Part shown: positions 19 through 6,061 of the stretch, one piece after another
How the letters are laid out: the number at the start of each line of letters is the position of its first letter
How positions within the stretch are numbered: the stretch's first letter is position 1
Origin: Ahrensia sp.
Lineage (GTDB): Bacteria; Pseudomonadota; Alphaproteobacteria; Rhizobiales; Rhizobiaceae
Direction: 5' to 3'
Assembly: GCA_028817895.1 (NCBI GenBank)
Contig: JAPPOQ010000020.1
Coordinates: 1 to 64,000, forward strand
Length of the DNA stretch: 64,000 nucleotides
Notes under the pieces: model-generated
Told to the model about the DNA's origin: nothing
The model's database searches: none
The model's input: only the letters and a program-made list of their open reading frames with translations
Translations under genes and position numbers: made by a program

Positions 19-449
19 GTTGCTGTTGGCCTGCGTTTTCTGAGCGGCTACACTATCGAACTGAAGTGTGTCAGCTGCGGTCCGTTGCTGTTGGCCTGCG
101 TTTTCTGAGCGGCTACACTGCGAATGGTGGAGCAGGCACTGCGGGACGCGTTGCTGTTGGCCTGCGTTTTCTGAGCGGCTACACTGCGAAAGAAATCGTC
201 CATTGTGTACGATTTGTTGCTGTTGGCCTGCGTTTTCTGAGCGGCTACACTAAAGAACGTGTTTTCTGACGGGCTGAAATGGTTGCTGTTGGCCTGCGTT
301 TTCTGAGCGGCTACACTGCAGGGCGCCAGAAACGAAATGTCGAATTGGTTGCTGTTGGCCTGCGTTTTCTGAGCGGCTACACTGATACCGGCTCTGCATA
401 TAGGTCGCCGCCTGTTGCTGTTGGCCTGCGTTTTCTGAGCGGCTACACT
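19..449 (+). CRISPR. Type II-C CRISPR array (7 repeats, left end outside window)
   Basis: Seven identical 36-bp repeats start at 19, 84, 150, 216, 282, 348 and 414. The spacers are 30 bp, except the first complete one (55-83), which is 29 bp; bases 1-18 are the tail of another spacer. The repeat begins GTTGCTGTTGG and ends GGCTACACT, which resembles the Neisseria II-C repeat (GTTG start, GCTACAAT end). The tracrRNA anti-repeat is complementary to the plus-strand repeat, so crRNA is read on the plus strand, converging on the cas operon. No repeat is degenerate at the cas2-proximal end. Long open frames across the array on both strands are repeat artefacts. Confidence 0.98.
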
Positions 450-923: not shown

Positions 924-1871
924 CTAACCATTGTTCCTGTCCAGAAGCTGATGGAAGCCTGCCATGGCAAGAGGCGAAAGCGGCAGAGGCAAATTGAGGC
1001 TTTCTGCCGAGGTCGGCACCGACCTATCAACGAGACATTCTGCCACCGCATGGACAACTCGACCAACATGAATGGATAGCGGGCTCCCCCCGGTGGGGGT
1101 GTCGATATCCAGGGCGGATAATCCCGCCAATGCTGCTTTTGCTTCCGAGGTTACATCCTCAATACCTGTCTCAATGAGGGTCAGGACCATGCGATCGACC
1201 AGCGGCCGGTATGGCTCCATGAGATCGTCAGCCAGCGGAAATGCATTGTTCTGATTTGCGTGATGAATGCCAAATGTCGGGTGCAGGCCAGCTGCGCAAA
1301 TGGCACGCGACACGATCGCCCGCAAAACGGTATATCCGTAGTTCAGAAGTGCGTTGGGGCCATTGCCATCGCGATCGCGACGAAACGCAGCGCCCATCAG
1401 CGCCGGCCAATATCGCCGCGCGGCTTGCGCTTCGAGATTGTCGGGGTCCCCGGAGCGGACCCGTCGTGCGATTGCATCGAGACCATCCCCTTGCTCTCCA
1501 GCCGAGCGGAGTACCGCAGCCTGCATGGCAATCTTCGATGAAACAATGCGCCGCCATATTTGCTTTTTCACCGGTTTGGGTGCCATCGCCTGGGCCCGCA
1601 TCCGGACGCTTTGGCGGTGGTGACCCTCCAGCGGCCAAAGACAAGTCACCGGTGCATGGTTCGTCGCGCACAACACGACCGGAACATCGCGTTTCGACAG
1701 TTGCACAAAAAGGTTGTTAGACCACGTTAGTCCATGAGCATGGGCAATGACTGCACCAATGTCATCCAGAGCGATGCGACCACGTTCTTCGCGGCCTTCG
1801 CTCACAGTCAAAAACCCTCTTGCAACTGCCAGATGCAGGCCATCAGTAGAAATATCGACTATCCGCTCCAT
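924..1871 (-). CDS. cas1: CRISPR-associated endonuclease Cas1
   Basis: Cas1 is the integrase that inserts new spacers together with Cas2. The 315-aa length is normal for type II Cas1. The C-terminal helical domain carries the family signatures NALLNYGYTVLRA (catalytic Glu region is just upstream), GIHHANQNNAFPLADDLMEPYRP (His and Asp metal ligands) in the usual order, so the active site looks intact. The gene sits 53 bp downstream of the cas9 stop and 3 bp upstream of cas2, giving a cas9-cas1-cas2 operon on the minus strand. Nothing suggests decay, so the locus should still be able to acquire spacers. Confidence 0.97.
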   Translation of the reverse strand: MERIVDISTDGLHLAVARGFLTVSEGREERGRIALDDIGAVIAHAHGLTWSNNLFVQLSKRDVPVVLCATNHAPVTCLWPLEGHHRQSVRMRAQAMAPKPVKKQIWRRIVSSKIAMQAAVLRSAGEQGDGLDAIARRVRSGDPDNLEAQAARRYWPALMGAAFRRDRDGNGPNALLNYGYTVLRAIVSRAICAAGLHPTFGIHHANQNNAFPLADDLMEPYRPLVDRMVLTLIETGIEDVTSEAKAALAGLSALDIDTPTGGSPLSIHVGRVVHAVAECLVDRSVPTSAESLNLPLPLSPLAMAGFHQLLDRNNG

Positions 1872-1924: not shown

Positions 1925-4900
1925 TTAATCACGGGGTCCGGGATCAGATACTGTTCCCAATTCATCTATGCGAATCTGACGGGCCTTCATTTTCCTCAAG
2001 CCACCGGCGGTTGGCGATATATATTTAAACGGGTCAAAGTCATCTGGAAATTTTGGGTGATTGTGATCAAGTTCGTTCGGCATCTCGTCGCGCTGTTTAA
2101 GGTTGCCGGCTTCCTGATGTGAAGCGAGTGTTATCTGGCCATTGGCGCCGAACTTCACGACGCGGGCAATAATGCGTTCTCCGTCCTTGTTCTCATAAGC
2201 AAGCATATCGTTTTGCTGGAGAGACAACACTTTCTTGGCCGTTGGATTGTTTGCTCGAACCGCCGATTGCCATCCGGGTTGGTGTACATCGAATGTCGAA
2301 ACGACCTCGGCAACCCACTTTCCATCCTTCAACTGCCAAACGTCATAGCGATAGTTGGAATCGCCCTTGTAACCCTTGAACACCTTCCCACTCTGATCGC
2401 GGATCGGGATTGTCTTGAGCGTTTCGAGAATTCTGACCCGTCTGATGCCTTGATACGGACCACCGGTGCTGGAGAAATCGATCAGGGCCTGAGTAAATTC
2501 CTTGCCGCTTGCATTGCGGGTCGCCTCCCAAAGCGCATCGCGGAGCTGCGGGTCGCGGATGTTCTGGATGTCTTTCGCCGAGAGGCTTTCCAGCGGTTTG
2601 CGACGCACAACCCGCGCTTGCCCCTTTTCATCCACTTCGTCCGTGGGGCCGTACGCGGTGTCGTTGTGCAACTGACCTGCAGTTTGATCGCTCCCTTTTT
2701 TCAAACCCGTTTTCGAAACCGTGCCGTGGTCAGGTTTGTGTGAGACGATCGTTGCGCGAACTTTCTCGCGCAATTCATTGCGAAAGCCATCCCATGGGTG
2801 CCTGAGGTCAGCGACCACGCGCTCCGCGCCCTCGCTTTCCAACTTAGCCGAGGCCGTCGCCATACGCTGCACGAGAGAACGCGATGTGCAGGCAATGACG
2901 GCCGCATCAATGGCGTGGTGACGATGGTCCTTGCGGTTCTTCTCCTTCACCGCCCAAGCGAAGTTATGATCCGGCAACAGGTCGTTCAATCCCCAGTTGC
3001 GGCGCAGCATTTCGGTCATCCGGCCAGGCAGCGCGCGAACCCGGCTGTGGTGGCGATATACGCCCTCGGCATCCGGTTCTTCGTAAGGGTAGAGCGAAGC
3101 GAGATAGGTTAGCCCCATCCGCGCGATGTATTGCATGTCCGTCAGCTGACGTGCTTCGAAGCCTTTCTCATCATCGAATATTTCCATCGCATTGGCCGCG
3201 AAGCGCCAGCGCTTGCTCCTTGGTAACGCCGAGGCGCGGGCAAGAATTTCGTCATAATGACTTGCCCAGGCGGCTACTTCCGCCGGAGCACGATTGCGCT
3301 TCTCCCGGTTGGCTTCAGCCAGGCACAAAAGACGGTTGGCCTGACTGTCGTCCAGGGTGCGCGAATAGGGCAGGATGTGATCGATATCGACGGCTTCTGT
3401 GAACAGTATCGACAGGGTGATTGGTTTGCCGAGATAGATGCAGACGCGCGCCTCGGGCTTCTCATGCAGTTCTTCCCAAAGCTTGAGCCGCAAGCGATTG
3501 TAGCCCGTATCGGGTTGGCCGAGTTCACGCAGTTTCTCGGACCGTCGCTCGGCATCGCGGGTGTTCTTACCGATGGTGCGGTTGATTTCGTCCTTCTGCT
3601 TGTCCGAAAGCTTGAGATCACGGCCCAGTTCGATGGAGATCTTGTCCGGCTTTCCGTGTCGCTTGATGACAGTATTCACGACGCGCCGCAGCTGATTGAG
3701 CGCGATATGCACCGTCGGATTGGTGATTCGGCCCATATAGTGGTCGTAGTGGGGATTTGAGGGGTCAATATCCTCCTCCGGCTTTCCGGTTCCCGGCGGA
3801 ATGTGGCGCTCCAGAACCTCCTGATATTTCGGCAACACATCATAACCCGGAAAATTATGATCACCCTGGCTGTTGGTGCGGCCATAGACATTGATGGCCG
3901 CCTGGGCTTCGGTGATCACCTTACCGTTTTCGTCGCGGCTGTTTGTCAATTCGTCGATCAACGACGTGAGTGCCGTCTCTCCAAGACGACCGTAGCCTTC
4001 GGGCAGAGCGATTTTCGATGCGGCGGCACGGCCATCGCCGTCGAGGCCTGTATTCTCACTAAGCCAATCGTCGAGAATATCAGGATCCTCGGTCTCACGC
4101 AGCTTCGAGACGATCTCCCATTGCCGCTCCATGTCGAAGGTGGTCCAGCCGTTTCCGAAAGCGTCCTTATGCGCCAGGGCGGCATGCACCTCGTCGCCCG
4201 TGAGCTTCGTGCGGTTATCGCTTTCCTTGTTGAAACGAAAATTGCGCGAGAGCTTCAGCGTCTTGCGAAGCGCGGCGAAATTGGCGGATTTCACCCCACG
4301 TAATTGCAGGACCAGGGCATCACGTTGATCCGGCGTCAGCTTGTGCGGAATTTCGTCCTCGCCGATGAGTGCGAGTTCGTTGACCTCCTTCAACAACCTA
4401 AATGTCTGAAACAACGGGTGTGCCTTTGGCAGCCGCATTTCATCCGGGTTGTAGGAGCAGCGTCCCGGAACGACGGGTTTCAAGGGACGTTGATAAAAGA
4501 TGATGATGCGCAGATGCTGAACGGCGTCTTTCGTCAGAAGTTCAGGATGATGCGTCGCCTGCACAGCGCAGATTTTGTCAAACTCATCTTCCAGATGTCC
4601 GCGAGACGGATAGAAGTCATAGCCGTCGCCCCGTGCGCCTTCGCCGGTTTCGGGGCGCAGCCGGGTGCGCACGGATTTTCGGTTCAACCGTCGTTTATGT
4701 AGGAACTCGCCGTAAGTCCGCGCGCCAGCCTCCATCATTGCCACGTCGAGCCGAGCAACACCGGTGACGATCTTTCCCGCCTCGTTGTCACCACCGTCGG
4801 TCTTGCGATTGGACTTGAAACCGCGGCGTTGGTCGAGTTGAAAGAGAATGCGCCCGATTTGCTGCGGCGAGAGCTTTTCATCGAGTGCTCTGGTGCGCAA

Positions 4901-5266
4901 GGCGTAGACATCCATGGAAACATCGCCGCCCTTGCGGTCTCCAGTTTCCTTTAGCAATTTCTTTCGCGCATCTTCATCGGGCGGCATCAGTTCATACTGA
5001 GTCAGTGCTTTGAGGAGGGCCTTTCGGCGGCGCAAATAGCGGTCTCGCCGCCGCCGTGCCGCCCGCGCATTGCGCCGCGCTACGGCAAGCGATTCGCCGG
5101 ATTTTGCATCGCGGCCAGCGCTTTCTGAGGACGAGAAGATGCGTGAGCCGATCGCGATGATGCGCCCCTGACGGGCTTCGGAACAGGGTTCCCCGGCGGA
5201 CTCGATGAGGCACCAGCCGAGCGAATTGGTGCCCAAGTCGATGCCCAGCGTTGTCAACTTGCTCAT
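1925..5266 (-). CDS. cas9: CRISPR-associated endonuclease Cas9, subtype II-C
   Basis: Cas9 is the RNA-guided DNA endonuclease that uses crRNA and tracrRNA. The 1113-aa size fits the compact II-C class. Visible parts in order: RuvC-I with GIDLGTNS (Asp10); an Arg-rich bridge helix near 63-85 (ARRNARAARRRRDRYLRRR); REC lobe; RuvC-II ISIELGRD (Glu546); HNH VDIDHILPYS (His630); RuvC-III HHAIDAAV (His784, Asp787); and a C-terminal PAM-interacting region. All catalytic residues are present. The start chosen is ATG 5266 because it gives the standard RuvC-I spacing and has a GAAAGTGG Shine-Dalgarno-like stretch; an in-frame TTG at 5281 would add five residues. PAM preference cannot be read from sequence. 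Confidence 0.98.
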   Translation of the reverse strand: MSKLTTLGIDLGTNSLGWCLIESAGEPCSEARQGRIIAIGSRIFSSSESAGRDAKSGESLAVARRNARAARRRRDRYLRRRKALLKALTQYELMPPDEDARKKLLKETGDRKGGDVSMDVYALRTRALDEKLSPQQIGRILFQLDQRRGFKSNRKTDGGDNEAGKIVTGVARLDVAMMEAGARTYGEFLHKRRLNRKSVRTRLRPETGEGARGDGYDFYPSRGHLEDEFDKICAVQATHHPELLTKDAVQHLRIIIFYQRPLKPVVPGRCSYNPDEMRLPKAHPLFQTFRLLKEVNELALIGEDEIPHKLTPDQRDALVLQLRGVKSANFAALRKTLKLSRNFRFNKESDNRTKLTGDEVHAALAHKDAFGNGWTTFDMERQWEIVSKLRETEDPDILDDWLSENTGLDGDGRAAASKIALPEGYGRLGETALTSLIDELTNSRDENGKVITEAQAAINVYGRTNSQGDHNFPGYDVLPKYQEVLERHIPPGTGKPEEDIDPSNPHYDHYMGRITNPTVHIALNQLRRVVNTVIKRHGKPDKISIELGRDLKLSDKQKDEINRTIGKNTRDAERRSEKLRELGQPDTGYNRLRLKLWEELHEKPEARVCIYLGKPITLSILFTEAVDIDHILPYSRTLDDSQANRLLCLAEANREKRNRAPAEVAAWASHYDEILARASALPRSKRWRFAANAMEIFDDEKGFEARQLTDMQYIARMGLTYLASLYPYEEPDAEGVYRHHSRVRALPGRMTEMLRRNWGLNDLLPDHNFAWAVKEKNRKDHRHHAIDAAVIACTSRSLVQRMATASAKLESEGAERVVADLRHPWDGFRNELREKVRATIVSHKPDHGTVSKTGLKKGSDQTAGQLHNDTAYGPTDEVDEKGQARVVRRKPLESLSAKDIQNIRDPQLRDALWEATRNASGKEFTQALIDFSSTGGPYQGIRRVRILETLKTIPIRDQSGKVFKGYKGDSNYRYDVWQLKDGKWVAEVVSTFDVHQPGWQSAVRANNPTAKKVLSLQQNDMLAYENKDGERIIARVVKFGANGQITLASHQEAGNLKQRDEMPNELDHNHPKFPDDFDPFKYISPTAGGLRKMKARQIRIDELGTVSDPGPRD

Positions 5267-5509
5267 AGCATCCACTTTCAACTCTCACAACGGCGACTAA
5301 GTATCGAAAAATTGCCTTCTATGGGTCAAATCTCTCGCATTACGGAGAATATAATAGTCCAACACACGCTCAAAATTGACGAATCAATAATAGAATGTTC
5401 AATAAAGAACGTGCAATTTGTGGATTTGCACACCAGCTTATATAAATCCAGCATGAATCAATAATACCATCAAACCATAGTCGCAATCGATATTTTTAGG
5501 GATTTCTTG
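5267..5509 (-). promoter_or_regulatory. AT-rich region upstream of cas9
   Basis: No gene is visible in this AT-rich stretch between cas9 and the tracrRNA locus, which is much lower in GC than its neighbours. It must hold the cas9 promoter: on the minus strand a TATTAT/ATATTC stretch around 5346-5356 is a possible -10 region, but no convincing -35 at ideal spacing is seen. A 12-bp direct repeat GAATCAATAATA occurs at 5381-5392 and 5455-5466. Confidence 0.45.
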
Positions 5510-5530
5510 ATTGAACTTGGCCTGCATTTT
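5510..5530 (+). repeat. Degenerate CRISPR repeat copy upstream of tracrRNA
   Basis: Bases 5510-5530 match the first 21 nt of the CRISPR repeat at 16 positions, including 13 of 14 in the block TTGGCCTGCATTTT (the repeat has G in place of A). The copy has the same orientation as the array repeats and is therefore complementary to the anti-repeat 60 bp downstream. A transcript starting upstream of it could fold the copy onto the tracrRNA anti-repeat. Whether such a transcript exists cannot be told from the sequence. Confidence 0.7.
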
Positions 5531-5545
5531 AATCAAGGAATTCCC

Positions 5546-5574
5546 TTGACTTGCAGCGTTATCCGTTGGATCTT
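5546..5574 (+). promoter_or_regulatory. Putative tracrRNA promoter
   Basis: A good -35 box TTGACT (5546-5551) is followed at 17 bp by a weak -10, GATCTT (5569-5574). Initiation about 6-7 bp further on would place the transcript start exactly at the anti-repeat (5581). The -35 and spacing support the call; the -10 is poor. Confidence 0.5.
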
Positions 5575-5692
5575 CGGTTTCTCAGAAAACGCAGGCCAGC
5601 CGTTAACAAGCTGTCCACAGCACCAGATAAGGATCAGGCTCCGGCCTGATCTCCCAAACAAAAAGGTCCGGCACGTGTGCTGGACCTTTTTT
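5575..5692 (+). ncRNA. tracrRNA
   Basis: Trans-activating CRISPR RNA that pairs with the crRNA repeat and is bound by Cas9. Bases 5581-5598 are an 18-nt perfect reverse complement of repeat positions 9-26. After a linker comes an 8-bp hairpin, GATCAGGC (5632-5639) with GCCTGATC (5644-5651) and a TCCG loop, then a long terminator hairpin ending in T6. This order (anti-repeat, nexus-like stem, terminator) is the standard tracrRNA architecture. The transcript is plus strand, divergent from cas9. The exact 5' end is inferred from the putative promoter. Confidence 0.92.
5661..5692 (+). terminator. Rho-independent terminator of tracrRNA
   Basis: The near-perfect stem AAAAGGTCCGGCAC / GTGCTGGACCTTTT continues into a run of six T. 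It forms the 3' end of the tracrRNA. Confidence 0.93.
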
Positions 5693-5731
5693 GTTCGCCG
5701 TTCAGCAAATAGTAGCTGTATTGTTGTTTCA

Positions 5732-6061
5732 TCACCAACGATTTGATGACAGGTTAGCCAAATTCAACGGGCAATCCCTGTCCTGATCCAGAGCACCAAC
5801 ACCTAGAACGTTACGATCCAGATTGATGCTGGGCAGTCCCATAGCTTCAACCAGATCGTCGCGAATCTTGCCGCAGGTCGAAAATACCCGGTGAAGCAAA
5901 GCTTCCTCATCGGGAGACAGATCAAGCCTGCCTCGCTCCAGCGCCTTAATTTGCGATGCGATGTACGCGCCAATACTCGTATCGCGCATCGCCTCACGCT
6001 CCAGCTGTTCGCGCTGCTCCGTTGTCATGCGCAGAGAGAAAGGGAGGGGCGTTTCTTGCAA
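5732..6061 (-). CDS. MobC-like ribbon-helix-helix protein, possibly decayed
   Basis: This 109-aa product starts with PLPFSLRMTTEQREQLEREA and GAYIASQI, the pattern of small ribbon-helix-helix DNA-binding proteins of the MobC/relaxosome type, which occur with plasmid or integrative-element relaxases. The C-terminal third (after about residue 75) does not look like the usual NLNQLA-type MobC ending, so the gene may be frameshifted or truncated. The TTG start at 6061 keeps the conserved PFSLR strand; ATG 6028 would remove it. No relaxase is nearby. It borders the CRISPR locus and may be a trace of the mobile element that brought it; this is inference. Confidence 0.45.
   Translation of the reverse strand: MQETPLPFSLRMTTEQREQLEREAMRDTSIGAYIASQIKALERGRLDLSPDEEALLHRVFSTCGKIRDDLVEAMGLPSINLDRNVLGVGALDQDRDCPLNLANLSSNRW

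Follow-up and report, generated by a model that had tools for sequence, protein, structure and literature searches.

In the type II-A system of Streptococcus pyogenes, the available text of one study (PMC11417352) describes a tracrRNA with two promoters, giving a long and a short form, in which the extension of the long form (tracr-L) has 11 nt of complementarity to the cas promoter, at a site next to an NGG PAM; according to the same text, a separate crRNA with 11 matching nucleotides also represses when combined with the short tracrRNA. The scaRNA of Francisella (type II-B) is a small repeat-bearing RNA from outside the array that is partly complementary to the tracrRNA, and type II-C scaRNAs have been predicted as units upstream of the array in Neisseria and Pasteurella, with no cas9 target named in the available part of that source (PMC6199352). 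The target given for the Neisseria scaRNA, in the portion available of its report, is the efeO mRNA (PMC13431127). RNAs of the CreR kind, which regulate cas genes, are stated for types I-B, I-E and V-A in the accessible text of PMC13131331, and that of a review of CRISPR regulation (PMC10013973) holds nothing on guides that target cas9 in type II-C. No report of such guides appeared among the literature matches listed, which were mostly from non-subscription sources. A 2023 survey of CRISPR repeat-like elements by Shmakov and others is said to concern mostly type I and type V-A systems.

Here we describe a degenerate copy of the CRISPR repeat between cas9 and the tracrRNA of a type II-C locus in Ahrensia sp., within a stretch of 64,000 nucleotides that we call the window. 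With a probability of about 0.6, this copy (5510-5530) is what remains, after decay or divergence, of a self-control guide beside cas9 of a kind that some related II-C loci retain.

The type II-C locus

The locus occupies the first 5.7 kb of the window in the order array, cas2, cas1, cas9 and tracrRNA. With all of these components and neither csn2 nor cas4 within the 5.7 kb, it belongs to type II-C, and cas2, cas1 and cas9 leave little space from the array to the cas9 start. Its features are as follows.

19-449, plus strand: CRISPR array with seven copies of a 36-nt repeat and six spacers, truncated by the contig start
522-920, minus strand: cas2 (profile TIGR01573, 63.8 bits)
924-1871, minus strand: cas1 of type II (profile TIGR03639, 242.7 bits)
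1925-5266, minus strand: cas9, 1113 aa in translation (profile TIGR01865, 597.9 bits)
5300-5329, minus strand: candidate cas9 promoter TTGACC-18-GATACT (consensus scan, one found against 1.0 expected by chance)
5490-5509, plus strand: guide slot preceding the repeat copy, with 5499-5509 as counterpart of the relatives' 11-nt seed
5510-5530, plus strand: degenerate repeat copy (16/21; core 5517-5530, 13/14)
5499-5512, plus strand: left arm of an inverted repeat around the copy
5531-5545, plus strand: right arm of that inverted repeat
5546-5574, plus strand: possible short-tracrRNA promoter TTGACT-17-GATCTT, proposed by eye and by analogy with relatives, and not found by the consensus scan
5581-5598, plus strand: tracrRNA anti-repeat, 18/18 complementary to repeat positions 9-26
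5601-5692, plus strand: remaining tracrRNA, including GTTAACAAG, its hairpins taken from fold prediction

The remainder of the tracrRNA contains a stem-loop at about 5632-5651 and, at about 5660-5692, a hairpin with a T run, which looks like a terminator by eye and received no score in the scan. The consensus scan scored no plus-strand promoter anywhere in 5200-5800, the presumed tracrRNA promoter included. An Rfam search returned one tRNA in the window and no match in five relatives. The AT-rich region upstream of cas9 also contains, by eye, a 12-nt direct repeat, GAATCAATAATA, at 5381-5392 and 5455-5466.

A degenerate repeat copy and its hairpin

A preliminary description of this DNA held that 5510-5530 matches the repeat at 16 of 21 positions in array orientation, and this is correct: the stretch is identical to positions 1-21 of the array repeat at 16 of them, and the best other 21-mer on the plus strand between 6001 and 63990 reaches 15/21. 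The core of the copy, TTGGCCTGCATTTT (5517-5530), agrees with repeat positions 8-21 at 13 of 14 bases, and four of the first seven repeat bases are changed. Dinucleotide shuffling of 5267-5578 produced an equally good local match to the repeat in 3 of 2000 cases, and none of 370 other 312-nt windows, both strands included, contained one. The copy exceeds chance, and it lies beside a normal type II-C tracrRNA. Its described ability to pair with the anti-repeat holds too, with a shift of one base in the partner (5586-5599 rather than 5587-5600): 5517-5530 can form 13 of 14 pairs there, a partial complementarity to the tracrRNA of the scaRNA kind. Copy and anti-repeat share one strand with no terminator scored between them, as in tracr-L, and no terminator of its own, as for a scaRNA, was scored after the copy.

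The inverted repeat formed by 5499-5512 and 5531-5545, which is absent from the preliminary description, brackets the copy. The segment 5498-5546 has a predicted folding energy of -20.2 kcal/mol, a stability equalled by no window (sampled every 3 nt) in 200 shuffles of 5401-5580, which suggests some selection on the hairpin. Its left arm spans the last 11 positions of the guide (5499-5509), and the 13/14 match to the portion of the repeat that pairs lies in the loop of the stem. When 5490-5700 is folded freely, this hairpin is retained (-79.1 kcal/mol); a fold constrained to pair copy with anti-repeat has -75.3 kcal/mol, which is 3.8 kcal/mol worse.

Target searches with the guide slot of the window

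The preliminary description saw no match to 5490-5509 in the DNA upstream of cas9, and guide scans of the cas9 5' region agree with it. No anchored guide match was found near cas9 (220 of 283 random guides equalled the best), and no PAM-flanked match above the null was found within 12 kb; the window thus yielded no guide of the tracr-L kind, which would match the cas promoter over about 11 nt beside a PAM. The own-genome search with the guide that the same description had suggested returned two matches with one mismatch, against two in the control. Another candidate, a shifted guide ending at 5516 that matches 5397-5409 on the minus strand at 12 of 13 positions, was rejected: its flank, ATTCTAT (T at positions 2 and 3, A at position 6), is unlike the PAM of the relatives, and its score was also attained by 1 of 20 null sets.

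Repeat copies and guides in related loci

The Cas9 of the window has matches in one of 15 genomes sampled from the genus, in 33 of 394 from the family, in 43 of 397 from the order and in 61 of 385 from the class (overlapping samples). DNA was taken for the best ~30 matches per genome search plus five named loci, so that the resulting 83 loci represent the nearer part of the matches; three genus searches around relatives gave no additional full cas9 locus. The closest cas9 among the matches listed is 66% identical to that of the window and, since none above this value was found, loss of the element cannot be dated. Arrays and repeats were read in 40 larger stretches and in some of the first loci, after which sense copies of each locus's own repeat were sought near the anti-repeat; for 12 loci in which no array was read, the repeat was borrowed from a relative. 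Some loci have two identifiers (L066 = L009, L069 = L014, L070 = L016, L072 = L018, L077 = L026, L089 = L048, L099 = L060, L002 = L011, L003 = L012, L004 = L015). Repeat copies are present in several loci, with identities of up to 27/27 (L016) and 32/32 (L060).

Fourteen copies, chosen by repeat similarity (a few of them weak, and with L071 outside the scan), were scanned for guides. Six have an exact seed of at least 10 nt (10-11 nt) that ends at the repeat and is found in the cas9 5' region, and three more (L016, L018 and L026) match with one or two G-to-A differences, which could be tolerable through G-T pairing. Random guides equalled these three in 0, 1 and 0 of ~285 cases, and across all nine matches same-locus random guides were as good in 0-2 of ~280. 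The five copies without a clear match are those of the window, L014 (no target found near cas9), L009 (a weak match, with 24 of 286 random guides equally good), L060 (9 nt plus a mismatch, without GG) and L048. Six further loci (L019, L022, L024, L038, L041 and L045) were added by a wider pair search, and L029 and L055 by an untargeted test.

The untargeted test called for an exact match of at least 10 nt that precedes a repeat 5' end, recognised by 9 of 13 motif positions, and is repeated near the cas9 start; five loci were dropped from it as their upstream DNA or cas9 5' end was missing. Sixteen of 83 alphaproteobacterial loci were positive, against a mean of 1.0 and a maximum of 2 in 20 shuffled runs, and 14 of the 16 look genuine; the pairs in L109 and L127 appear to be due to chance. 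Relaxing the motif to 7 or 8 of 13 positions gave 33 and 21 positives among the 83 loci, against null means of 11.2 and 3.9, and GG was present in 5 of the 33 and 10 of the 21. Among curated copies, 14 of 21 match their own cas9 region, a proportion that counts the window among the 21 and both near twins, L022 and L029, among the 14, and that is partly circular because some curated copies were found via their match; the untargeted test and the cross-locus control are free of this circularity. In that control 2 of 1722 pairings matched, both between the near twins, which, set against 14 of 21 at home, speaks against either a shared operator or biased sequence as the cause. The guides of the relatives differ between loci and match within a locus.

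The 14 exact matches measure 10, 10, 11 (nine times), 12, 14 and 15 nt. Targets in 17 loci range from 6 nt inside the cas9 start to 211 nt upstream of it, and three of the 17 overlap the promoter with the best score, the promoter calls upstream of cas9 being ambiguous. For L012, labelled weak, the match was seen by eye, and an exact 8-nt match was not found computationally. By raw count, which we do not rely on, the best stem ends 8-17 nt ahead of the repeat in 16 of the 21 copies. The near twins share an identical guide and a near-identical target, but their PAMs differ (GGG versus GGT); the cas9 match of L029 spans residues 7-715 only and ends near the contig end.

PAM pattern

Next to the 14 exact matches, PAM position 2 is always G, position 3 is G in 11, A in 2 and T in 1 (a purine in 13/14), position 5 is A in 7, G in 5 and T in 2, and position 6 is T in 9, C in 4 and A in 1 (a pyrimidine in 13/14). 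GG occupies positions 2-3 in 11 of the 16 positives of the untargeted test, which did not require a PAM. The Cas9 of another alphaproteobacterium, Defluviimonas (DfCas9), has a measured requirement for NNRNAY according to the available text of PMC7708072; as given there, positions 3 and 6 agree with the pattern of the relatives, and position 5 does so in half of the cases. Protospacer searches of plasmids (with the L089 and L006 arrays) and of phages (with the L006 array) returned one record only, a Sphingobium plasmid with eight places at 70.9%, perhaps another array.

Layouts

The distance from the copy to the tracrRNA GTTAACAAG is 64-95 nt in 13 loci, including the window (91 nt), with no terminator scored (compact layout), and 119-187 nt in seven loci (spaced layout). 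The compact loci have, by eye only, a possible inner promoter for a short tracrRNA, with TTGA.. and TA.. boxes. In L014, L016 and L018 the scan scored a terminator-like hairpin following the copy, and similar hairpins that it left unscored were seen by eye in L009 and L010. The tracrRNA of L026 lies on the opposite strand, convergent with a stand-alone copy that retains its near match to the cas9 5' region, and the scored hairpin is on the tracrRNA side. Given that strand arrangement and the terminators in three loci, a guide RNA in these loci would act in trans, and because a separate crRNA with short tracrRNA represses in S. pyogenes, the spaced layout could work in that way.

Extra repeat-like sequences of other kinds were also seen. 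L090 and L091 each have a second repeat-like copy, ~250-280 nt from the cas9 start and immediately in front of the anti-repeat; by eye it contains TTGACC together with a TATC box, which would fit a tracrRNA promoter derived from a CRISPR repeat. In addition to its anti-repeat, L071 has 20 nt of the repeat (borrowed from L072) in reverse orientation, 93-113 nt from the cas9 start, and L068 has a second array past the tracrRNA with a near-identical repeat in opposite orientation.

Distribution on the Cas9 tree

A Cas9 tree of 81 rows was built by a quick method, with L057 and L120 left out as short. All 11 exact-match loci with GG, together with three near matches, fall in one set of 38 rows (SH-aLRT 86), in which 17 rows are labelled exact, near or weak; L030 and L055 fall elsewhere in the tree. 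The window belongs to a set of nine rows (SH-aLRT 100), and five other members (L009, L010, L012, L014 and L016) have a copy between cas9 and the tracrRNA: one with an exact match (L010), one near (L016, one difference), two weak and one without a target. In the remaining three, L008, L011 and L015, no copy was seen and the tracrRNA is close to cas9. The conservation among close relatives with an intact tracrRNA that the preliminary description had named as a test is therefore found in five loci of this set and fails in three. In the next larger starred set, of 29 rows, 15 are labelled as without the element, including the window and L014. Although the Cas9 proteins of L011 and L012 are closely related (end branches 0.04), the anti-repeat is 104 nt from cas9 with no copy seen in the former and 386 nt away with a copy present in the latter, so that the element seems easily lost.

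Interpretation and alternatives

From the copies, the guide-target matches, the PAM pattern and the layouts, all of which are read from the DNA itself, we infer for the relatives a course of transcription, loading, binding without cutting and repression of cas9. In relatives with a match, a guide of ~11 nt runs right up to the first base of a repeat copy that sits between cas9 and the tracrRNA, and it matches a site with a PAM-like flank in the promoter, leader or start region of cas9. In the compact layout, guide and copy would be joined with the tracrRNA in a single transcript; in the spaced layout, the guide RNA would pair with the tracrRNA in trans. Either RNA would bring Cas9 to its own gene, where ~11 paired bases would let it bind without cutting, and cas9 expression would fall. 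We consider it likely that cas9 is often regulated in this way among the II-C systems of one alphaproteobacterial group, via a dedicated ~11-nt guide beside the tracrRNA. The layout would be either compact, and readable into the tracrRNA, or spaced, where some loci would make a distinct crRNA-like RNA with its own terminator; guides and targets would be specific to each locus, and the window would be a decaying example.

For the window, the preliminary description had proposed a natural single-guide RNA or a member of the scaRNA class. The relatives, with guides that match the cas9 5' region beside a shared PAM, lend strong support to that class, but the window itself speaks against membership, with no target found near cas9, four of the first seven repeat bases different and the guide slot held in a hairpin. 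The core survives, but given the missing target and the damaged 5' end of the repeat, the element is probably inactive on cas9. The decay is deduced from missing parts, and a distant or poorly pairing target could be missed; the sister copies of L009 and L014, which lack a clear target, suggest that the copy may have another role.

A working single-guide RNA of the tracr-L type, aimed at cas9 or at another gene through an unrecognised match, is unlikely: the compact layout without a scored terminator, shared with 12 relatives, and a guide-like fold merely 3.8 kcal/mol above the free fold would suit it, but the anchored search near cas9, the PAM-flanked search over 12 kb and the own-genome search all ended at the level of their controls, and the repeat is altered at its 5' end. 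Also unlikely is a passive remnant, either of the inverted repeat pair that founded the tracrRNA or of a displaced array unit, that never guided Cas9. Extra copies of other kinds near the tracrRNA, such as the promoter-like ones of L090 and L091, fit such an origin; the matching guides of the sister loci L010 (exact) and L016 (one difference), at a similar place, argue against it.

Quite unlikely, in our judgement, is a guide-free decoy, an RNA hairpin that would show the repeat core in its loop, sequester the tracrRNA and reduce crRNA loading. The placement of the 13/14 match in the loop of the stem is what such a decoy would need, whereas the scan that scored no plus-strand promoter around the copy counts against it, with the caveat that it misses the presumed tracrRNA promoter as well. 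A chance match to the repeat is highly improbable: the few shuffles that attain the score speak for it, but none of the 370 real windows does so, and the copy has the orientation of the relatives' copies and a similar place.

If the mechanism proposed for the relatives is true, Cas9 self-control via a too-short guide recurs in type II-C at the same 11-nt length and is not a peculiarity of type II-A. The loci would then be natural tests of the number of paired bases that permits Cas9 to bind without cutting, their self-targets would expose the PAM preference of uncharacterised Cas9 enzymes with no protospacer needed, and stray repeat copies retained beside the tracrRNA would be accounted for.

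Comparison with known systems

The CreR RNAs, as far as the available text on them goes, resemble the guides described here in that a guide RNA partly matches a cas promoter, and differ in belonging to types I-B, I-E and V-A. With the scaRNA of Francisella, the loci share a repeat copy outside the array that is partly complementary to the tracrRNA; the predicted II-C scaRNAs, in contrast, lie beside the array, whereas the copies of the relatives lie between cas9 and the tracrRNA. Relative to tracr-L, the relatives are of type II-C and from Alphaproteobacteria, their two promoters are seen by eye only, a terminator is scored between guide RNA and tracrRNA in three loci, L026 has its tracrRNA on the opposite strand, and the copy of the window is without a target found. 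The likeness of the relatives with a compact layout to tracr-L lies in the order of guide, repeat and tracrRNA, in the 11-nt match and in the G-rich PAM.
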